DNA from: Polyangiaceae bacterium
GTDB lineage: Bacteria > Myxococcota_A > Polyangia > Polyangiales > Polyangiaceae
NCBI GenBank assembly: GCA_029941785.1
Contig: JAPYTK010000008.1
Coordinates: 1-57,811 of the forward strand
DNA: 57,811 nucleotides
Direction of reading: 5' to 3'
Shown here piece by piece: positions 2,735-10,427 of the stretch. A program made the position numbers and the translations under genes. Below the pieces are notes generated by a model. The model saw nothing but the letters and a program-made list of their open reading frames with translations. It searched no databases and was not told where the DNA came from. Position 1 is the first letter of the stretch, and each line of letters starts with the position of its first letter.

Positions 2735-4408
2735 TCAGGAGGACGTCGGCACGGGGATGGCGAAGGGGGCGTCTCGTGGTGCGCCCAGAGCTTTCGCTAC
2801 GACCTTGGCGGCATGGTGTCCACCCAACATGGCACCGACGATGCCGTGCCCGGCCCGCGTCGAGACGCCGCAGAGAAACATGCCGTCGATGGGCCCTTCG
2901 TAGCTTGGTCGACGCTCGAGGAATTGCTCTGGCGTGCAGGCGAGGCCGTAGCCGGTGCCGGCGCTCGCTCGCGTGTAACGCGTGTGAGACACCGGGGTCG
3001 CGGATTCCCGAAAACAAACGCGATCTTTGGCAGCCGGAAACAAGGCGAGGAATCGGCGCACCATATCGTCCTCGACTCGCTGCTTGAGCTCGCGGTAGCG
3101 CTCGCTCTTCTTGTAGCGCCACCCGTCGATGGCTTCGGGCTGCACGCACCATTTGCGGGGATCGCCTTCGACCAAGGACATGACCTCGACGTTCGTCATC
3201 CCTGCGGGCGCGTGTCCCTTCGTGTTCGGATCCTTGATCGATGCGCTCGTGATGTAGCACCCGGCCGTCTCGATCGTGTCGCTGCGGCGCGCGCGCTGGT
3301 AGGCGGCCTCGACGTCGTAATCGTCGAATTGCCAGTAATTCGTGGCGCGCATGCCATCGTCGCGCAGATCTCCTTCCACGCCGAGGAAGGTCATGAACAG
3401 TGCGCCTGCCATCTGGTAGGAATCGGTCCGCTTGCGCCAGGCGCTCGGCAGATGGTCGCGGGGCAACAACTCCAGCAGGGTGCGCTTGAGGTCGGCCGAG
3501 GAGAGCACGCACTTGGCCCGTACCTCGTGCTGGGTACCTCGGCGGGCCTCGGTCCTCACCCCTACCGCTCGGCCGTCCTCGACCAAGATGGTCTCGATGC
3601 CGCAGCGCAGGTGAATGCTCCCGCCACGAGCTTCGATGGACTCGGCGAGACGATCGCTGATGATCTGACCACCGCCTCGCGGGTAGTAGGCTCCTTTGAA
3701 GTAGTGCGCAGCGAGGCCGCAATGGAGGACGGCGGCTACCTCGCTCGGAGGCAGGGCGTAGTCCCCGTTTTGTCCGAGGATCACGGCACGAAGCTTGGGG
3801 TCTTGGGTGCAGCCGTCCAAGAATTGCTTCATCGTGGCCTTCTGGTTGAAGGCGAGCGTGCGGCCGCTCGTGACGATCTCGACGAGGGTGCGAAGCGAGA
3901 GCTTACCCGCGTTGTTCTCGATGCGTTGCCCGATGCGACCGACCTGTTCGACGAGCTGCACATAGCGATCGATGCCTCTTTTTTCAGCCGGAAAGAGGTC
4001 CAGCAGGCGTTCGCGGTAAAGCTCGAGATTTGCAGGAATCTGAAACCGCAAATCGGGAAAGACCAAGGTGTCGAAACCATTGCGATCCATGGACTCGAAG
4101 TCGACATTCACGCCGACACTTTCGAGCAGTTTCGGCATGACGCCGGCAGGGCCACAGTCGCCGACGTAGTGCAGTCCAATGTCAAAACAATAACGGTCCA
4201 AGTTGCTGCCGCGCGAGAACTGGGTGGCGCAGCCTCCCGCCACATAGTGCGGGTCGAACAGGGCGACGCGAACCCCCCGTGTGCTGAGCGCGGCTCCCGC
4301 CATGAGGCCAGCGGTCCCCGCGCCGATGATCGCCACGTCGACTTCCGTCGGCGGCGGCGAGGCGGTGCGGGCCTTCGTCATGTAGGTTGGATCGTGAACG
4401 TGCTTCAT
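2735..4408 (-). CDS. FAD-dependent phytoene desaturase / retinol saturase-like oxidoreductase
   Basis: 557 residues from ATG 4408; an in-frame ATG at 4381 is an alternative. The dinucleotide-binding motif GAGTAGLMAG with a downstream acidic residue (VALFD) opens the protein at about residues 28-46. The C-terminal FAD motif GMFLCGVSTRAGHGIVGAML is also present. Together these place it in the CrtI / RetSat / carotenoid isomerase group, which desaturates, saturates or isomerises polyprenyl or polyene chains. It starts 13 bases after the dikinase-like gene and ends 8 bases before the nucleotidyltransferase, inside an apparent five-gene operon. No phytoene synthase or other carotenoid gene is nearby, so a lipid or polyprenyl substrate is possible. 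The substrate is unknown. Confidence 0.82.
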   Translation of the reverse strand: MKHVHDPTYMTKARTASPPPTEVDVAIIGAGTAGLMAGAALSTRGVRVALFDPHYVAGGCATQFSRGSNLDRYCFDIGLHYVGDCGPAGVMPKLLESVGVNVDFESMDRNGFDTLVFPDLRFQIPANLELYRERLLDLFPAEKRGIDRYVQLVEQVGRIGQRIENNAGKLSLRTLVEIVTSGRTLAFNQKATMKQFLDGCTQDPKLRAVILGQNGDYALPPSEVAAVLHCGLAAHYFKGAYYPRGGGQIISDRLAESIEARGGSIHLRCGIETILVEDGRAVGVRTEARRGTQHEVRAKCVLSSADLKRTLLELLPRDHLPSAWRKRTDSYQMAGALFMTFLGVEGDLRDDGMRATNYWQFDDYDVEAAYQRARRSDTIETAGCYITSASIKDPNTKGHAPAGMTNVEVMSLVEGDPRKWCVQPEAIDGWRYKKSERYRELKQRVEDDMVRRFLALFPAAKDRVCFRESATPVSHTRYTRASAGTGYGLACTPEQFLERRPSYEGPIDGMFLCGVSTRAGHGIVGAMLGGHHAAKVVAKALGAPRDAPFAIPVPTSS

Positions 4409-4421
4409 GGGCAAGTGGGCT

Positions 4422-7400
4422 TTAGCCCGAATTCGATGGTTCTTCCACCGTGCGTTGCGGTCGATGTGGGGGCGATCCCGCGCGGTCGATCCTCTCATGA
4501 CTGATGACGCTCCGTCCGCGCGGGCCATCGAGGTACACGCCGATGGGCTCGGCGAGCCGGACATGGCGAACGAGTTCATCTTCGAACACCGCCTCGTGTT
4601 CATCGAGCCAGCCCAGATCGAGCCAGCTTTCGGCGCTATCGCGGACGGTGAGGTAACCGATTCGGCGAGCGGTGACGTTCCGGAAGAAGTGCGTGCCCTG
4701 AGAGGGCTCGACGTGGCGGCCCTCCATCGGCTGTTCGACAATCACGCGAACACCGGAGATGTTTGGCCAATGAACGCTGATACCCAGATACGGGTCGGAG
4801 CTGCCCCATCGGCCCGGTCCGACCAGCATGTAGTGTCTTTGCTCCTTTGCGAGGCGATGATTGATCTCGTCGATTCGTTCGATCACCGCTCGTCCCATGG
4901 CAGGGTCTGTACGATGAGCGGTGACATAGACGATGTCCCGCACGGTTTCGATCGAGCCGTGACCTAGTGACATGTCGGTGCGGCAAAGCAGCGCGGCATC
5001 GCTGACATTGTCGAAGTCGACCGGCGCCGCTCCGAGTTCGCGTTGGGCCATCGGTCGCACTTGAAGGATGTAAAGGCGCGGGTCTTGCCTCTTGACCCTT
5101 TTCGGCATGGAACGACCCCAGTCCGCCATGTCGAGCGCAAATTCGATTTCGACCTCCGCACCGATCCGTTCGCGCAACAAGGCGAGGATCTCGCTGAGCG
5201 CGAGCGAGACGGGGACGGCGTTCCATTTGAGAAGATTGTTGAAGGTCACGACCCGCGGACCGGCAAGCTTGAGATTTTCCCGGATGACGTCATCGTCCTC
5301 GCAATACACGCTGCCTGCGAGGCTTAGAGGGCCGTCCTGTTGCGCCACTTCGAGCGGGTGACGCTTCAAGCTGGCTTCGGCATCCGTCGTCACCGGGAGG
5401 TCGGGATGTGACAAATCCACGGCCCAAAACTCTCGTTGCGAAGCGCGATGGACCGATTCGGCGTTCGCGTATTGGGGCAGCACGGTCGGGGAGGCCGGGG
5501 AGAATCGCAGGCTCGATCCGCCTCCTACGACGATGTGTCCGAGGCCCAAGGCGACGTGTGCGACTCCCTCTTCAGGTTTCTGTTTTCCGATCGGGTAGTC
5601 GTTGTACGACTGTGCGACGCCTGACATGTGCGGGTAAAAACGATCGCCATAGCGTTTGCCGACGACCTGCTGAATCACGATGGCCATCTTCTGTTCGTCC
5701 ACTTCGTGGGGCGTGCCCGCGACATAGGTGCGTGCCTCCCGCCAGAAGACGGACGCGTAGACGGACTGAATGGCTTGGCATAGTTGAGCCAAACGCTCCG
5801 CGGGGTCCGCGTGGTTGTTCGGCAACATGTACGTTGCGTAGACACCCGCAAAAGGCTGAAATCGTGAGTCTTCGAGCAAGCTGCTGGACCGGACCGCGAG
5901 CGGTCCTTTGAGCTCGTTGACCGCGGCCCACAGATCACTGACGACCTCGCTGGGCAGGTCGATGTCCCGCCACATCGAGGTGACCTCGTCGTCACTTCGG
6001 GCAGCGAGGACCCGGGGCATGTCGAGCTTCTCGAGGCAGTGGTCGTAGACATCGGTGCCGATGACCACGGTTTTGGGAATACGAATCTGCAGCCCTTCGT
6101 AACGATCGAGTAGCCCATAGCGGACGATCAGGGCGCTGACGAAAGCGATGCCCCGCCCTTTGCCACCTACGGAGCCACGGCCCACCCGCACGAATCGATT
6201 GTGTGGGCCGGTGTACCGTGCCGAAAAATCCGTGATGACCCCTTCTTGCTCGCGCTGGTGGGCTTGTTGAAGGACCGCGACGAGCTCCTCTCGTAGGACC
6301 TCGATGTCCTTTCGGTCGTCGAAGACACGTGGGCGTAGCCGATGCGCGAGTTCGAACATGCTGCGGGCCATGAACCACAAGGAGAAGTGGTTCCGGGTCG
6401 CGTGGAACATCATCGATTCCGCGGGCACGTGCTGCAGGGCTTCTTCCATTTCGTAGGTGTCGCGTGCCCGTGCGACTGGTGTTCCGTCGGGGAGCCGGAA
6501 CACGAAATCACCAAAACCGAGAGCTTGGCTGAGGAAGGTCCTCACCCGGGGTCGAAAGTCGTGCGATTTCTTCACCAGGTGTGCCGCGCCGAGCGGTTTC
6601 GTCAGGGTCGCGAGGTCGGTCTCCGCGGATTGAAACAAGATGGGCAGCTCGGGCTTCAGTTCCAGCACTCGTTTGGCCAGCCTGATACCACCGCGTGGGT
6701 CGATCTTGCCCCCTCGTGGAATGCGAATATCGCTCATCAGTGCGCAAACATGGCCGGCGTGACGCTCGAACAGGAGCAGGCCCTGTTCGTAGTCGCGCGC
6801 GAGCACGATCTTGGGCCGGGCGCGCATACGCAACAGTCGGTGAAAACGATTGAGCCCCTCCGCGATCAACGAGCCGGAGTGACTGAGCAGCTCCGGGTAA
6901 AGCATGCTGAGAAAGTTGGAGTAGGCGTCGATGTCATCTTCTACAACCAAGATGACCTGCACGCCCGCGGTGTCGGTGTCGTGTTTGACGTTCCGCGCAT
7001 CCTCGACGAGCTTGATGGCAGCGATGAGTAGACCGGCATCGCCCGCCCACTGAAACACCCAGTCGATGGTGTGGGGGATTTGTTGGTTAGGAAAGTGCTG
7101 CAGGTCAGCGGCGTCGAAGAGAAGCAAGATGACCGGGAGGTCTTGGTGCTTCCGTTTGATGATACGGCTCAACTTGCGTGCGTCGGTATCCCCGATGCGG
7201 ACGACGGTGATCACGAGATCGAAGTGACGACTCTCGAGCAGCCGGAGCGCTTCAGACTTGCTCGCGGCATGACTGAGGCGCGGCGCCGAGGAGAGATTCA
7301 GCTCGGAATACTCGAGGAAGAGGCGGTCACTGAGTGAACCGTCCTCCTCGAGGACAAAGGCATCGTAGGCCGAAGAGACGAGGAGGATTTCTCGTACGCG

Positions 7401-7457
7401 AAAGGGCATGAGCTGCCCGAAGCGCCGATGCCACGGCACGACCGGGAAGCTTTCCAT
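4422..7457 (-). CDS. PEP/pyruvate-binding (PPDK-N) protein with two receiver-like domains
   Basis: 1011 residues, preceded by a strong AGGAGG (7465-7470) seven bases before ATG 7457. Residues about 22-150 look like a degenerate receiver domain lacking the acidic pair (LLVSSAYD). Residues about 166-312 form a second receiver with VVEDD (171-175), probable phospho-acceptor D243 (MSDIRIP) and K296/K297. From about residue 430 follows the ATP-grasp half of pyruvate phosphate dikinase / PEP synthase, with VGGKGRG and VRSSSLLED. I see no phospho-histidine swivelling domain and no PEP/pyruvate TIM barrel, so full dikinase chemistry is unlikely. It may phosphorylate a partner or act as a regulated ATP-grasp enzyme. 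It lies directly downstream of glutamate dehydrogenase. Confidence 0.82.
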   Translation of the reverse strand: MESFPVVPWHRRFGQLMPFRVREILLVSSAYDAFVLEEDGSLSDRLFLEYSELNLSSAPRLSHAASKSEALRLLESRHFDLVITVVRIGDTDARKLSRIIKRKHQDLPVILLLFDAADLQHFPNQQIPHTIDWVFQWAGDAGLLIAAIKLVEDARNVKHDTDTAGVQVILVVEDDIDAYSNFLSMLYPELLSHSGSLIAEGLNRFHRLLRMRARPKIVLARDYEQGLLLFERHAGHVCALMSDIRIPRGGKIDPRGGIRLAKRVLELKPELPILFQSAETDLATLTKPLGAAHLVKKSHDFRPRVRTFLSQALGFGDFVFRLPDGTPVARARDTYEMEEALQHVPAESMMFHATRNHFSLWFMARSMFELAHRLRPRVFDDRKDIEVLREELVAVLQQAHQREQEGVITDFSARYTGPHNRFVRVGRGSVGGKGRGIAFVSALIVRYGLLDRYEGLQIRIPKTVVIGTDVYDHCLEKLDMPRVLAARSDDEVTSMWRDIDLPSEVVSDLWAAVNELKGPLAVRSSSLLEDSRFQPFAGVYATYMLPNNHADPAERLAQLCQAIQSVYASVFWREARTYVAGTPHEVDEQKMAIVIQQVVGKRYGDRFYPHMSGVAQSYNDYPIGKQKPEEGVAHVALGLGHIVVGGGSSLRFSPASPTVLPQYANAESVHRASQREFWAVDLSHPDLPVTTDAEASLKRHPLEVAQQDGPLSLAGSVYCEDDDVIRENLKLAGPRVVTFNNLLKWNAVPVSLALSEILALLRERIGAEVEIEFALDMADWGRSMPKRVKRQDPRLYILQVRPMAQRELGAAPVDFDNVSDAALLCRTDMSLGHGSIETVRDIVYVTAHRTDPAMGRAVIERIDEINHRLAKEQRHYMLVGPGRWGSSDPYLGISVHWPNISGVRVIVEQPMEGRHVEPSQGTHFFRNVTARRIGYLTVRDSAESWLDLGWLDEHEAVFEDELVRHVRLAEPIGVYLDGPRGRSVISHERIDRAGSPPHRPQRTVEEPSNSG

Positions 7458-7485
7458 GACGAATCCTCCTCGTTTGGGTTTTCGC

Positions 7486-8826
7486 TCAGACGATGCCTTG
7501 ATCGAGCATGGCGTCGGCGACCTTGATGAAGCCCGCGATGTTGGCGCCCTTTACGTAGTCGGTGAAGTCGCCCTCGGTGCCGTGCTCGACGCAGGCTGCG
7601 TGAATCGATTTCATGATGTGATGAAGCTTGCCGTCGACCTCTTCGCGCGTCCAATGGATGTGGGTGGCGTTTTGCGACATTTCCAGTCCGCTCGTGGCGA
7701 CGCCCCCCGCGTTGGCCGCTTTGCCGGGGCCGTACAAAATCTTCGCATTGGTGAAGACCTCGACGCCTTCGGGGACCGTGGGCATGTTTGCACCCTCTGA
7801 CACGCAGATGCAGCCATTTTCGACCAAGGTCTTGGCGTCCGCTTCAGAGATTTCGTTCTCGATGGCCGAGGGGAATGCCATGTCGCATGCGACCTTCCAG
7901 GGCCGGGAACCCTCGAGGTATTCCACGCCCTTGTGAGCTTGTGCATATTCGCGAATGCGCCCGCGCCGCTGGTTCTTGAGGTCCATGATCCACGCGAGTT
8001 TCTCTTCGTTGATGCCGTCAGGATCCACCACCGTGCCTGCGGAGTCGGACATCGTGACGACCTTGGCGCCTAGGTTGAGGAGTTTCTCGACGGTGTATTG
8101 CGCGACGTTGCCCGAGCCGCTCACCGTGGCGACCGCACCGGCGAGATCGCGACCACGAGCGTTCATCATCTCTTGGGCAAAGTACACCGCGCCGTATCCC
8201 GTGGCTTCCGGTCGGATGAGCGAGCCGCCCCAGCCGAGGCCCTTGCCTGTGAGCACACCGGTAAACTCGTTCGAGAGCTTCTTGTACTGGCCGAAGAGGT
8301 AGCCGATTTCCCTGCCGCCCACACCCACGTCCCCGGCAGGGATGTCGGTGTTGGGGCCGATGTGCCGGTACAACTCCGACATGAACGCCTGACAGAAGCG
8401 CATGACCTCACCGTCGCTCTTGCCCTTGGGATCGAAATCGCTGCCCCCCTTGCCACCGCCGAGGGGCAAGGTGGTTAGGCTGTTCTTGAAGACCTGCTCG
8501 AAGGCGAGGAATTTCAGGACGCCGATGTCCACGCTAGGATGGAAGCGCAGCCCGCCTTTGTAGGGGCCGATTGCGCTGTTCATCTCGATGCGGAATCCGC
8601 GATTGACGTGCACTTCGCCGTGGTCGTCGACCCACGGTACGCGGAACATGATGACCCGCTCGGGTTCGACGATACGGTGCAAGATCTTTGCTTGGCGGTA
8701 GGCCGGATTCTGCTCGATCACGGGCCAAACCGTGTCGGCGACTTCCTGCACGGCCTGATGAAATTCGGGCTGAGCCGGGTTCTTGGCAATGACCTCGTCC
8801 ATGAAGGACTGAGCGGCGGTCGACAT
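7486..8826 (-). CDS. gdhA: NADP-type glutamate dehydrogenase
   Basis: 446 residues, the usual length for hexameric bacterial GdhA (about 447). The substrate and catalytic segments GPYKGGLRFHPSV and LPLGGGKGGSDFDPKGKSD are intact, as are AGDVGVGGREIGYL and the coenzyme-domain motif GSGNVAQY. It performs reversible reductive amination of 2-oxoglutarate with ammonium. A GAGGAGAT ribosome binding site precedes ATG 8826. It is the first gene of a tight run on the minus strand; the next gene begins 28 bases after its stop. The divergent cytochrome gene starts 125 bases away. Confidence 0.95.
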   Translation of the reverse strand: MSTAAQSFMDEVIAKNPAQPEFHQAVQEVADTVWPVIEQNPAYRQAKILHRIVEPERVIMFRVPWVDDHGEVHVNRGFRIEMNSAIGPYKGGLRFHPSVDIGVLKFLAFEQVFKNSLTTLPLGGGKGGSDFDPKGKSDGEVMRFCQAFMSELYRHIGPNTDIPAGDVGVGGREIGYLFGQYKKLSNEFTGVLTGKGLGWGGSLIRPEATGYGAVYFAQEMMNARGRDLAGAVATVSGSGNVAQYTVEKLLNLGAKVVTMSDSAGTVVDPDGINEEKLAWIMDLKNQRRGRIREYAQAHKGVEYLEGSRPWKVACDMAFPSAIENEISEADAKTLVENGCICVSEGANMPTVPEGVEVFTNAKILYGPGKAANAGGVATSGLEMSQNATHIHWTREEVDGKLHHIMKSIHAACVEHGTEGDFTDYVKGANIAGFIKVADAMLDQGIV

Positions 8827-8898
8827 CGTGGATCTCCTCGCGTAACTAAGCTGACCGTTTTAGGGTTAGGCGGTGACCCCCCAATTCGTTTCACGAGG

Positions 8899-8925
8899 TT
8901 GGCACCGATTGCAGAGTGTTACAAT
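8899..8925 (+). promoter_or_regulatory. Weak sigma70-like promoter candidate for the cytochrome gene
   Basis: TTGGCA (8899-8904) and TACAAT (8920-8925) lie on the plus strand, about 27 bases ahead of the cytochrome start. The 15-base spacer is short, so this is only a candidate. It sits in the 125-base divergent region shared with gdhA. Confidence 0.28.
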
Positions 8926-8951
8926 GGCTGTGAGAGCTTGAGCGAGACAAG

Positions 8952-10427
8952 ATGGAACGAACGACACGGAAGCGATTGACGCAGTGCGGCACGAGGTTTG
9001 CGTTGACCGTCGTGGCGGCCTTGGGGGGGATGCTCTTCGTCGGCTGTGGCGACTCGACACCGCTCGATTCGGGAGGCGAGAGTTCTTCGTCCACGCCGCC
9101 AGCTCCCCCCTTGCCGGGCACGCAGATGCCGCAGAGCGAGCAACGACCAGGGGACCCCGCGAAGGGTTACGAGGCGCTGATCACAAAGGGCTACGTGAGC
9201 TGCGGGGTGCCGTACAGCGTGTACAAGTTGGCGTTTGGGGAGGCGCCCGAGTGGCTTCGCCTCGCAGGTCGGACCGGAAAGAACGAGACCTTGCCTTACT
9301 ATTACACCGCCTTCACGACCCCGACGGGCGTGGATGTCGTGGCGCCCAACTGTCTCGTCTGCCACGGCGCCACATTCAAGCAGAGTGTGGTCGTCGGCCT
9401 CGGACAGCATGCCTCTGACTACACGGGTGATCCGTCCACCCAGGCGGAGGCTGTCGGCGCGCTCCTGACCGATCCGGCCGAGAAGCTCGAGTGGCGCAAG
9501 TGGGCGGATCGGGTCAAGGCGCTGGCTCCTTTCATCCAGATGCCTACGCGTGGGCCGACCCCTGCCGACAGTATCGCGGCGGTGCTCATCGCTCACCGTG
9601 ATCAAGCCACTCTCGCGTGGTCGAAGGAGCCACTACTTGGTTTGCCGCCGGCGCACGTCATCCCGGTTGACGTGCCGCCTTGGTGGCGGATGAGCAAGAA
9701 GAACGCCATGTTCTATACCGCTGCCGGTCAGGGGGATCACGCGCGGATCATGATGAGCGCCTCGACGCTCTGCACCGACAGCGTCGAGGAAGCTGAGGCT
9801 ATCGACGCGTACTTCCCCGACGTGCGAGCGTATCTCTATTCGCTCACGCCGCCTCCCTACGAGGGGGAGATCGTTCAAGAGAAAGTCGTCAAAGGAGAGG
9901 CACTTTTCGGTGAAAACTGCGCGCGGTGCCATGGGGTTTACGGAGCGGAGGCGAGCTATCCAAATCTGTTGATCGCGATGGAGGATGTCGGCACGGACAA
10001 GTGGCTCGCGACGGGGGCGGCTCAGTACGCCGAGGAGTACGTCACGTGGTTCAATGGGTCCTTCTACGGTCAGCTCGGCACGCTGAAGCCGTTGCCAGGT
10101 TACATGGCGCCGCCTCTCGATGGAATTTGGATGACTGCGCCCTATCTGCATAACGGCGCGGTGCCCAATCTCTGGAGCTTGCTTCACAGTCCTTCGCGCC
10201 CCGATCGGTGGCAACGCAGTTTCGACGATGGCGACTTCGACGAGACCTTTGTCGGCTGGCGTTTCCTATCGCTCGAGCCCGCCGAGGTGGAGGGGGCAAG
10301 CCCGTCGGAACGTCAGCGTATCTACGACACGACGGTCATGGGCTACGGGAACGGCGGTCATGTGTACGGCGACGCGCTCAGTGATGAGGAGCGCTGGGCA
10401 CTCATCGAGTATCTCAAGACGCTGTGA
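8952..10427 (+). CDS. Di-heme c-type cytochrome lipoprotein
   Basis: 491 residues with a lipoprotein signal (hydrophobic stretch, then LFVGC with Cys 32) and a Ser/Pro-rich linker. Two CxxCH heme sites are visible: CLVCH at 134-138 and CARCH at 323-327. The C-terminal half resembles the cytochrome c peroxidase / di-heme oxidoreductase type, including the LDGIWMTAPYLHNGAVP segment typical of that group. The protein should sit in the periplasm anchored to a membrane and transfer electrons or reduce peroxide. Its stop overlaps the GTG start of the next gene (GTGA), so the two are translationally coupled. The exact enzymatic activity is not certain. Confidence 0.82.
   Translation: MERTTRKRLTQCGTRFALTVVAALGGMLFVGCGDSTPLDSGGESSSSTPPAPPLPGTQMPQSEQRPGDPAKGYEALITKGYVSCGVPYSVYKLAFGEAPEWLRLAGRTGKNETLPYYYTAFTTPTGVDVVAPNCLVCHGATFKQSVVVGLGQHASDYTGDPSTQAEAVGALLTDPAEKLEWRKWADRVKALAPFIQMPTRGPTPADSIAAVLIAHRDQATLAWSKEPLLGLPPAHVIPVDVPPWWRMSKKNAMFYTAAGQGDHARIMMSASTLCTDSVEEAEAIDAYFPDVRAYLYSLTPPPYEGEIVQEKVVKGEALFGENCARCHGVYGAEASYPNLLIAMEDVGTDKWLATGAAQYAEEYVTWFNGSFYGQLGTLKPLPGYMAPPLDGIWMTAPYLHNGAVPNLWSLLHSPSRPDRWQRSFDDGDFDETFVGWRFLSLEPAEVEGASPSERQRIYDTTVMGYGNGGHVYGDALSDEERWALIEYLKTL

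Follow-up and report, generated by a model that had tools for sequence, protein, structure and literature searches.

The window analyzed here is the whole 57,811-nucleotide stretch of the Polyangiaceae contig JAPYTK010000008.1, and our subject within it is an open reading frame (ORF) that encodes a dikinase-like protein and lies directly downstream of gdhA, the gene for glutamate dehydrogenase (GDH). From its N-terminus the protein is made up of two receiver-like domains, a middle region, an ATP-grasp domain of the type found in pyruvate phosphate dikinase (PPDK), and a C-terminal domain of probable swivelling type.

4422 to 7457, minus strand: the dikinase-like ORF, 1011 amino acids (aa), intact from ATG to stop, with a layout kept in relatives.
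6978 to 7400, minus strand: receiver-like domain 1 (residues ~20-160), without an acceptor Asp; best Response_reg stretch 60-112.
6513 to 6965, minus strand: receiver domain 2 (residues ~165-315); D243 codon at 6729-6731.
6228 to 6512, minus strand: middle region (residues 316-410), weakly DUF5752-like, with conserved H352 and N356-H357-F-S.
5040 to 6185, minus strand: PPDK-type ATP-grasp domain (residues ~425-806), with the PPDK_N match and the key residues.
4494 to 5024, minus strand: C-terminal domain of probable swivelling type (residues ~812-988); H923 codon at 4689-4691.
7486 to 8826, minus strand: gdhA, GDH of 446 aa, with ELFV_dehydrog and ELFV_dehydrog_N domains; many relatives of the ORF likewise adjoin GDH.

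The upstream gdhA shares the strand of the ORF and is separated from it by 28 bp, and 13 bp past the ORF is the likely start (position 4408) of a gene for an FAD-dependent oxidoreductase; with both gaps so short, the ORF looks like part of an operon. A scan of positions 4200-9000 for promoters and terminators gave no signal above chance. The ORF is the sole PPDK_N gene detected in its own genome assembly (completeness 98.84%), and since its whole layout is conserved across two phyla at 36-49% identity, it is neither a chance frame nor a broken or decayed one.

The initial annotation, made from the letters of the DNA alone, had taken the product for a regulated protein holding the ATP-grasp half of PPDK, with a chemistry other than the usual one on phosphoenolpyruvate (PEP), and this much was supported. 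The Pfam family PPDK_N (PF01326) matches residues 429-806 (E 6.4e-35), and K433, R523, E772, and Q799 are each present in all 42 rows of our family alignment. In a phmmer alignment counted by hand in the chain numbering of 5fbs, R523 aligns with Arg117 of rifampin phosphotransferase (RPH), a residue that contacts the alpha-phosphate (PMC4844700; here and below, such citations refer to the available excerpts of each source), and K433, to go by its GGK motif, would be the equivalent of RPH Lys22. Judged by these residues, the ATP-grasp domain looks active. The profile search that had been proposed as a check returned Response_reg and PPDK_N from Pfam and neither PEP-utilizers nor PEP-utilizers_C (the PEP/pyruvate domain, PF02896) anywhere in the 1011-aa protein, in keeping with the earlier claim that the PEP/pyruvate domain is missing; the model of the C-terminal domain also has a different fold from that one. 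Against the NCBIfam model of PEP synthase, TIGR01418, the protein scores 24.5 bits vs a cut-off of 739.75, and the NCBIfam RPH and PEP-synthase models match solely within residues 451-646. By Pfam, the chain also carries no substrate-binding domain of the kind found in RPH or HpeHI, a statement about this chain, as a partner dikinase subunit was not systematically searched for. Because the PEP/pyruvate domain was not found, formation of PEP in the usual way is unlikely.

The two receiver-like domains said to precede the ATP-grasp domain are also there. Response_reg lies above the Pfam cut-off, with two stretches at a loose threshold, and the profiles of receivers 1 and 2 are related (hhalign probability 91.5%). 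Both domains are backed by structural matches to receiver proteins in Foldseek and in VIA-align, the latter being a re-examination of Foldseek's 1000 best chains, with residues 166-315 matching receiver domains such as Spo0F (6ifh) at a Z of ~15. The division of labor between them stood as well: receiver 1 has no acceptor, its V85, which aligns with D243, being acidic in 0/36 filled rows (of 42), and receiver 2 keeps D243 at the acceptor position, with E173, D174, D243, S277, and K296 invariant across the 19 aligned sequences of the receiver residue check. The acidic pair, the acceptor Asp, the Ser/Thr, and the Lys of a receiver (REC) domain are thus all present in receiver 2. In the middle region, a DUF5752 stretch (353-404) has an E-value of 0.0083, which falls under the Pfam cut-off, and H352 is present in 37/42 rows, the remaining five being gaps.

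Where the initial annotation probably erred is in denying the protein a swivelling His domain. No Pfam family matched residues 812-988. The AlphaFold2 (AF2) model of this domain alone, built from an alignment that included nine Bacteroidota relatives, has a predicted local distance difference test (pLDDT) score of 83.7 and a predicted TM-score (pTM) of 0.83, and its top row in VIA-align is RPH 5fbu residues 756-867 (Z 7.0, root-mean-square deviation (rmsd) 3.3, 112 aligned). Rows 1-5 are phospho-His domains of RPH and PPDK (5jvn, 5jvl, 2r82, and 5lu4 at Z 6.9-6.2), rows 7 and 8 are EI-Ntr (5t12) and PPDK 1kbl, and further rows are chaperonin, LD-carboxypeptidase/MccF, PA-type, aconitase, and carbamoyl-phosphate synthetase small-subunit chains. 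We take the matched domains all to have the 'swivelling' beta/beta/alpha fold of SCOP. That the RPH stretch is the mobile His domain is supported by another protein, whose PEP-utilizers stretch aligns there (with RPH 762-863 in the same RPH sequence, and with 2ols 355-466). Structure prediction, which had also been proposed as a check, thus served well for the C-terminal domain and poorly for the full-length protein (pLDDT 59.6), and because of that score the contacts between domains were left unread. Residues 406-989 of the full-length model align with RPH 5hv1 (Z 16.4) and with the ATP-grasp and His domains of PEP synthase (2ols 10-467; Z 15.9, rmsd 8.3), and residues 405-990 align with PPDK 5lu4 10-511 (Z 14.2, rmsd 8.1).

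Within this domain lies a motif, S-x-G-[TSA]-H-F, of which G921, H923, and F924 are present in 42/42 rows and S919 in 41/42. In the AF2 C-terminal model, H923 opens a helix after strand 903-909 and is followed by strand 934-937, a helix-start placing that presumably resembles that of the catalytic His of swivelling domains. With respect to RPH His825, one full-length alignment ends 926-to-828, which would place H923 on His825, and another ends 923-to-829, about four residues off. Several results weigh against the assignment. An hhalign comparison with the swivelling domains of PEP-synthase/RPH-like proteins, usable ones having been obtained from 9 of the 16 loci tried, gave no match (probability 0.9%), and the score of 15.3 falls among those of 60 column-shuffled controls, which went as high as 22.9. 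The published swivel-domain motif T/SxxGGxxxH (PMC12167813) is absent from the C-terminal domain, Foldseek alone gave the C-terminal model no match at E 0.001, a VIA Z of ~7 is in the middling range by the tool's own scale, and the His loop has a pLDDT of <50 in the full-length model. We regard the domain as probably a swivelling-type phospho-His-like domain, going by its modelled fold, with H923 as the candidate phospho-His; since both a profile match and the published motif are missing, we call it swivelling-type and keep it out of PF00391.

Relatives were sought in a sample of 187 genomes of the window's phylum, of which 51 have some match and 25 hold 27 full-length copies, the window's included. 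Beyond the phylum, nine Bacteroidota loci match nearly full length at 36-37% identity; all were retrieved by a single search with six seed peptides, and as mutually close kin they do not amount to nine independent cases. Three records of a plasmid collection carry the family too, from Phocaeicola massiliensis, Parabacteroides distasonis, and a Prevotella sp. At eight of the nine Bacteroidota loci the open frame runs to ~1400 codons, and the extra N-terminus, at the two loci inspected, appears by eye to consist of three similar copies of one unit; a scan of two loci found neither a Pfam family above cut-off nor a kinase domain in it. The P. distasonis protein, WP_041525632, is without this extension, and therefore the front end is variable and the core of ATP-grasp and C-terminal domains constant; a HAMP histidine kinase gene lies ~5.5 kb from the P. 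distasonis gene. At two loci of the phylum sample, L028 and L033, ~290 different residues replace the receivers in front of the core, with neither a receiver nor a DUF5752 match, and these are the only two of that kind found among the 187 genomes. The RecA/KaiC look of their N-terminus was an impression by eye that Pfam and NCBIfam did not support, and it was dropped. At L023:5217-8390 (plus strand) and L032:3759-5909 (minus strand), the core is joined to a C-terminal nucleotidyltransferase domain, and the L023 fusion gene directly follows a receiver-less core gene. In genome G001 the parts are found on separate contigs, the receiver part at L025:4858-6006 (minus strand, 383 aa) and the ATP-grasp/C-terminal part at L024:5408-7147 (plus strand, 580 aa). 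No relative of the dikinase-like protein was found in the viral contigs searched, and no anti-phage family matched.

The gene's tie to gdhA extends well past the window. Within the phylum sample, a GDH gene lies no more than 1 kb from 19 of the 27 full-length copies; five copies are undecidable, their neighborhoods lying near contig ends (G149, G109, G077, G121, and G035), and three are clearly not linked. For 18 of the 27, the GDH gene lies within 929 bp and is a gdhA sharing at least 50% identity with that of the window, and in G008 contig 10 a GDH of ~36% identity is 989 bp away. All nine Bacteroidota loci adjoin a divergent gdhA, as do P. massiliensis and the annotated P. distasonis record. 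One copy in G179 (contig 107) lies between two GDH genes, and the other copy in that genome has a gdhA of its own. A further copy, in G078, is broken between two contigs, one fragment lying 464 bp from gdhA, and stands outside the 27. Four arrangements occur (in tandem with gdhA leading, in tandem with gdhA following, divergent, and convergent). With the 30 linked rows placed on a quick tree, some forks of which are open, at least seven changes of arrangement are required; the linkage has therefore either survived rearrangement or been established anew. Of the genomes with a full-length copy, 24/25 encode a GdhA that shares at least 50% identity with that of the window, vs 33/162 of those without one; this comparison is uncorrected for relatedness, and G078 and the genomes whose relatives are all partial or distant were placed in the group without. 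In 12 gdhA neighborhoods from genomes lacking the protein, no core relative was found.

For both core genes with the alternative N-terminus, L028 and L033, the gene immediately upstream is again gdhA, at distances of ~30 and 300 bp, and the stretches examined around the two nucleotidyltransferase-fused relatives hold no gdhA; the link therefore follows the core in two architectures and not in all. Counting against a general link are G030, G034, and G100, where at least 2.5 kb to each side of the gene is free of GDH, and the unannotated Prevotella record, with no GDH within 6 kb. A GdhA site specific to linked copies was considered and set aside: a comparison of 29 linked with 14 unlinked sequences turned up five differing columns, which relatedness explains equally well. 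The initial annotation had read a metabolic switch into the gene's place between gdhA and lipid-type genes. Its gdhA side is upheld by the linkage across relatives, and its lipid side is not, as the two nearest relatives are followed by other genes: a family-less ORF and then a metallophosphatase at L026, and uvrC at L027. Among the neighbors seen (those other than GDH in some loci only), GdhA is the one recurring in both phyla. Some Bacteroidota loci share NADH-dehydrogenase-like neighbor genes, and the window's relatives differ in this; downstream at L003:11484-17020 (plus strand) are NuoF-like and NuoG/molybdopterin-like redox subunits, and L004, L005, L007, and L009 have ORFs of like size and order at the same position.

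The reading that we prefer, and which we put forward tentatively as quite possible though short of probable, is that the protein is a response regulator whose two-domain dikinase output acts on GDH. A histidine kinase would phosphorylate D243 of receiver 2, with receiver 1 as a pseudo-receiver that may relay or modulate the signal; none of the 9 neighbor genes scanned for domains is a kinase. Phosphorylated D243 would free the ATP-grasp domain (K433, R523, E772, and Q799), which would pass a phosphate of ATP to H923 on the swivelling domain and leave AMP, and the His domain could then swing to its partner GdhA, which would be phosphorylated or otherwise switched. A chain that holds an ATP-grasp domain and a probable His carrier, and on which no acceptor domain is recognised, needs a partner. 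We infer all of this chemistry, the choice of GdhA as target (phosphotransfer included), and the direction of control from what was observed, namely the architecture, the residue conservation, the predicted swivelling fold, and the gdhA linkage. The broader picture, in which a two-component signal steers nitrogen assimilation through a protein kinase that is built from the PPDK toolkit and acts on GdhA via a swivelling phospho-His, from the window's phylum to gut Bacteroidota and with one sensing front end exchanged for another from lineage to lineage, is doubtful, though it may hold. If GdhA is indeed modified, a PPDK-type dikinase would be aimed at a protein, and a class of response regulator so far listed in print without a function would have one assigned. 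Two purified proteins would suffice to test the proposal directly.

A different acceptor would make the protein a small-molecule dikinase of the glutamate pathway, with a metabolite bound at the middle region or at a C-terminal insert and GDH as a mere pathway neighbor. Some known relatives, RPH (PMC4844700) and HpeHI (PMC12167813), use small molecules as acceptors, and the conserved H352 and N356-H357 could form such a site. However, Pfam names no PEP/pyruvate or other substrate domain, and the gdhA-linked L028 and L033 proteins, without receiver or DUF5752 matches, indicate that the middle region may vary, so we find this reading rather unlikely. The GDH linkage would also be at home with a non-catalytic or mainly allosteric regulator of GdhA, which would bind GdhA by its C-terminal domain and use the ATP-grasp domain as a sensor of adenine nucleotides, and the deviation of the C-terminal sequence from the usual phospho-His motif would suit it. 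Binders would, however, be expected to lose some catalytic residues, whereas K433, R523, E772, Q799, and H923 are present in 42/42 rows, distant ones included; we judge this regulator unlikely.

An intact receiver and an invariant His on one chain also allow for an ATP-grasp 'histidine kinase', in which phosphate would pass from H923 to D243 of the same or another molecule as a one-protein His-Asp relay. The ~1400-codon frames at eight of the nine Bacteroidota loci, two of them scanned with no kinase domain found, speak for it. The two gdhA-linked core proteins nevertheless have no receiver match, so D243 is probably dispensable for the shared function, and we hold the relay to be improbable. 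That the protein is simply a PEP synthase or PPDK of the ordinary kind, whether intact or a decayed remnant, is scarcely credible despite the PPDK_N match and the public annotation as 'PEP/pyruvate-binding domain-containing protein', given the absent PEP/pyruvate domain, the shortfall against TIGR01418, and, for a remnant, the layout conserved across phyla.

Returning to the response regulator acting on GDH, its output can be set beside known dikinases. With the RPH/PPDK_N dikinases it shares an ATP-grasp domain with equivalents of Arg117 (R523) and, putatively, Lys22 (K433), and a predicted swivelling domain with an invariant His. Unlike them, it has N-terminal receivers, no substrate-binding domain that was found, and its His domain directly after the ATP-grasp domain and without the usual motif. 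The two-component dikinases HpeHI, CreHI, and PpsAB likewise have their ATP-grasp and acceptor-binding parts on separate chains (PMC12167813), but there the swivel is on the acceptor chain, whereas here it would be part of the ATP-grasp chain, with a protein, GdhA, as the proposed partner. The combination of REC and PPDK is already in print, as a 'Bacteroides-like' response-regulator combination in Heimdallarchaeota (PMC5847659) and, through PPDK, among the effectors of aspartate-less receivers (PMC4395418). These printed proteins, which have REC and PPDK on one chain alike, probably belong to the family studied here; the available excerpts give no partner, His domain, or function for them. 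Neither the GDH link nor the cryptic C-terminal His domain was found in the literature searched, which covered few subscription journals. By the title of a 1996 article of Baggio and Morrison, one or more trans-acting genes downstream of gdhA reportedly affect GdhA activity in Bacteroides thetaiotaomicron; such a gene may belong to the present family or to another.

Two further genes of the window's own genome (G000) touch on dikinases. On contig 97, L086:3997-5115 (plus strand) encodes a PSRP-type kinase-pyrophosphorylase (PF03618), a regulator of PPDK or PEP synthase; the assembly nevertheless yielded neither of these two enzymes in its ordinary form. Regulation of the dikinase-like protein by PSRP was considered and dropped, as PF03618 has a match in 7/25 genomes with a full-length copy vs 101/162 others; it is also disfavored by the residue two before H923, a Gly where PEP synthase has its regulatory Thr. 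On contig 6, L087:3428-6031 (minus strand) is an 868-codon frame with no PPDK_N match, whose C-terminal part is RPH/PEP-synthase-like and has a PEP-utilizers match. This frame reads GGMLWPSAELARE where its relative L068 has GGMLSHGAVIARE, and its catalytic His seems, by this comparison, to have been lost.

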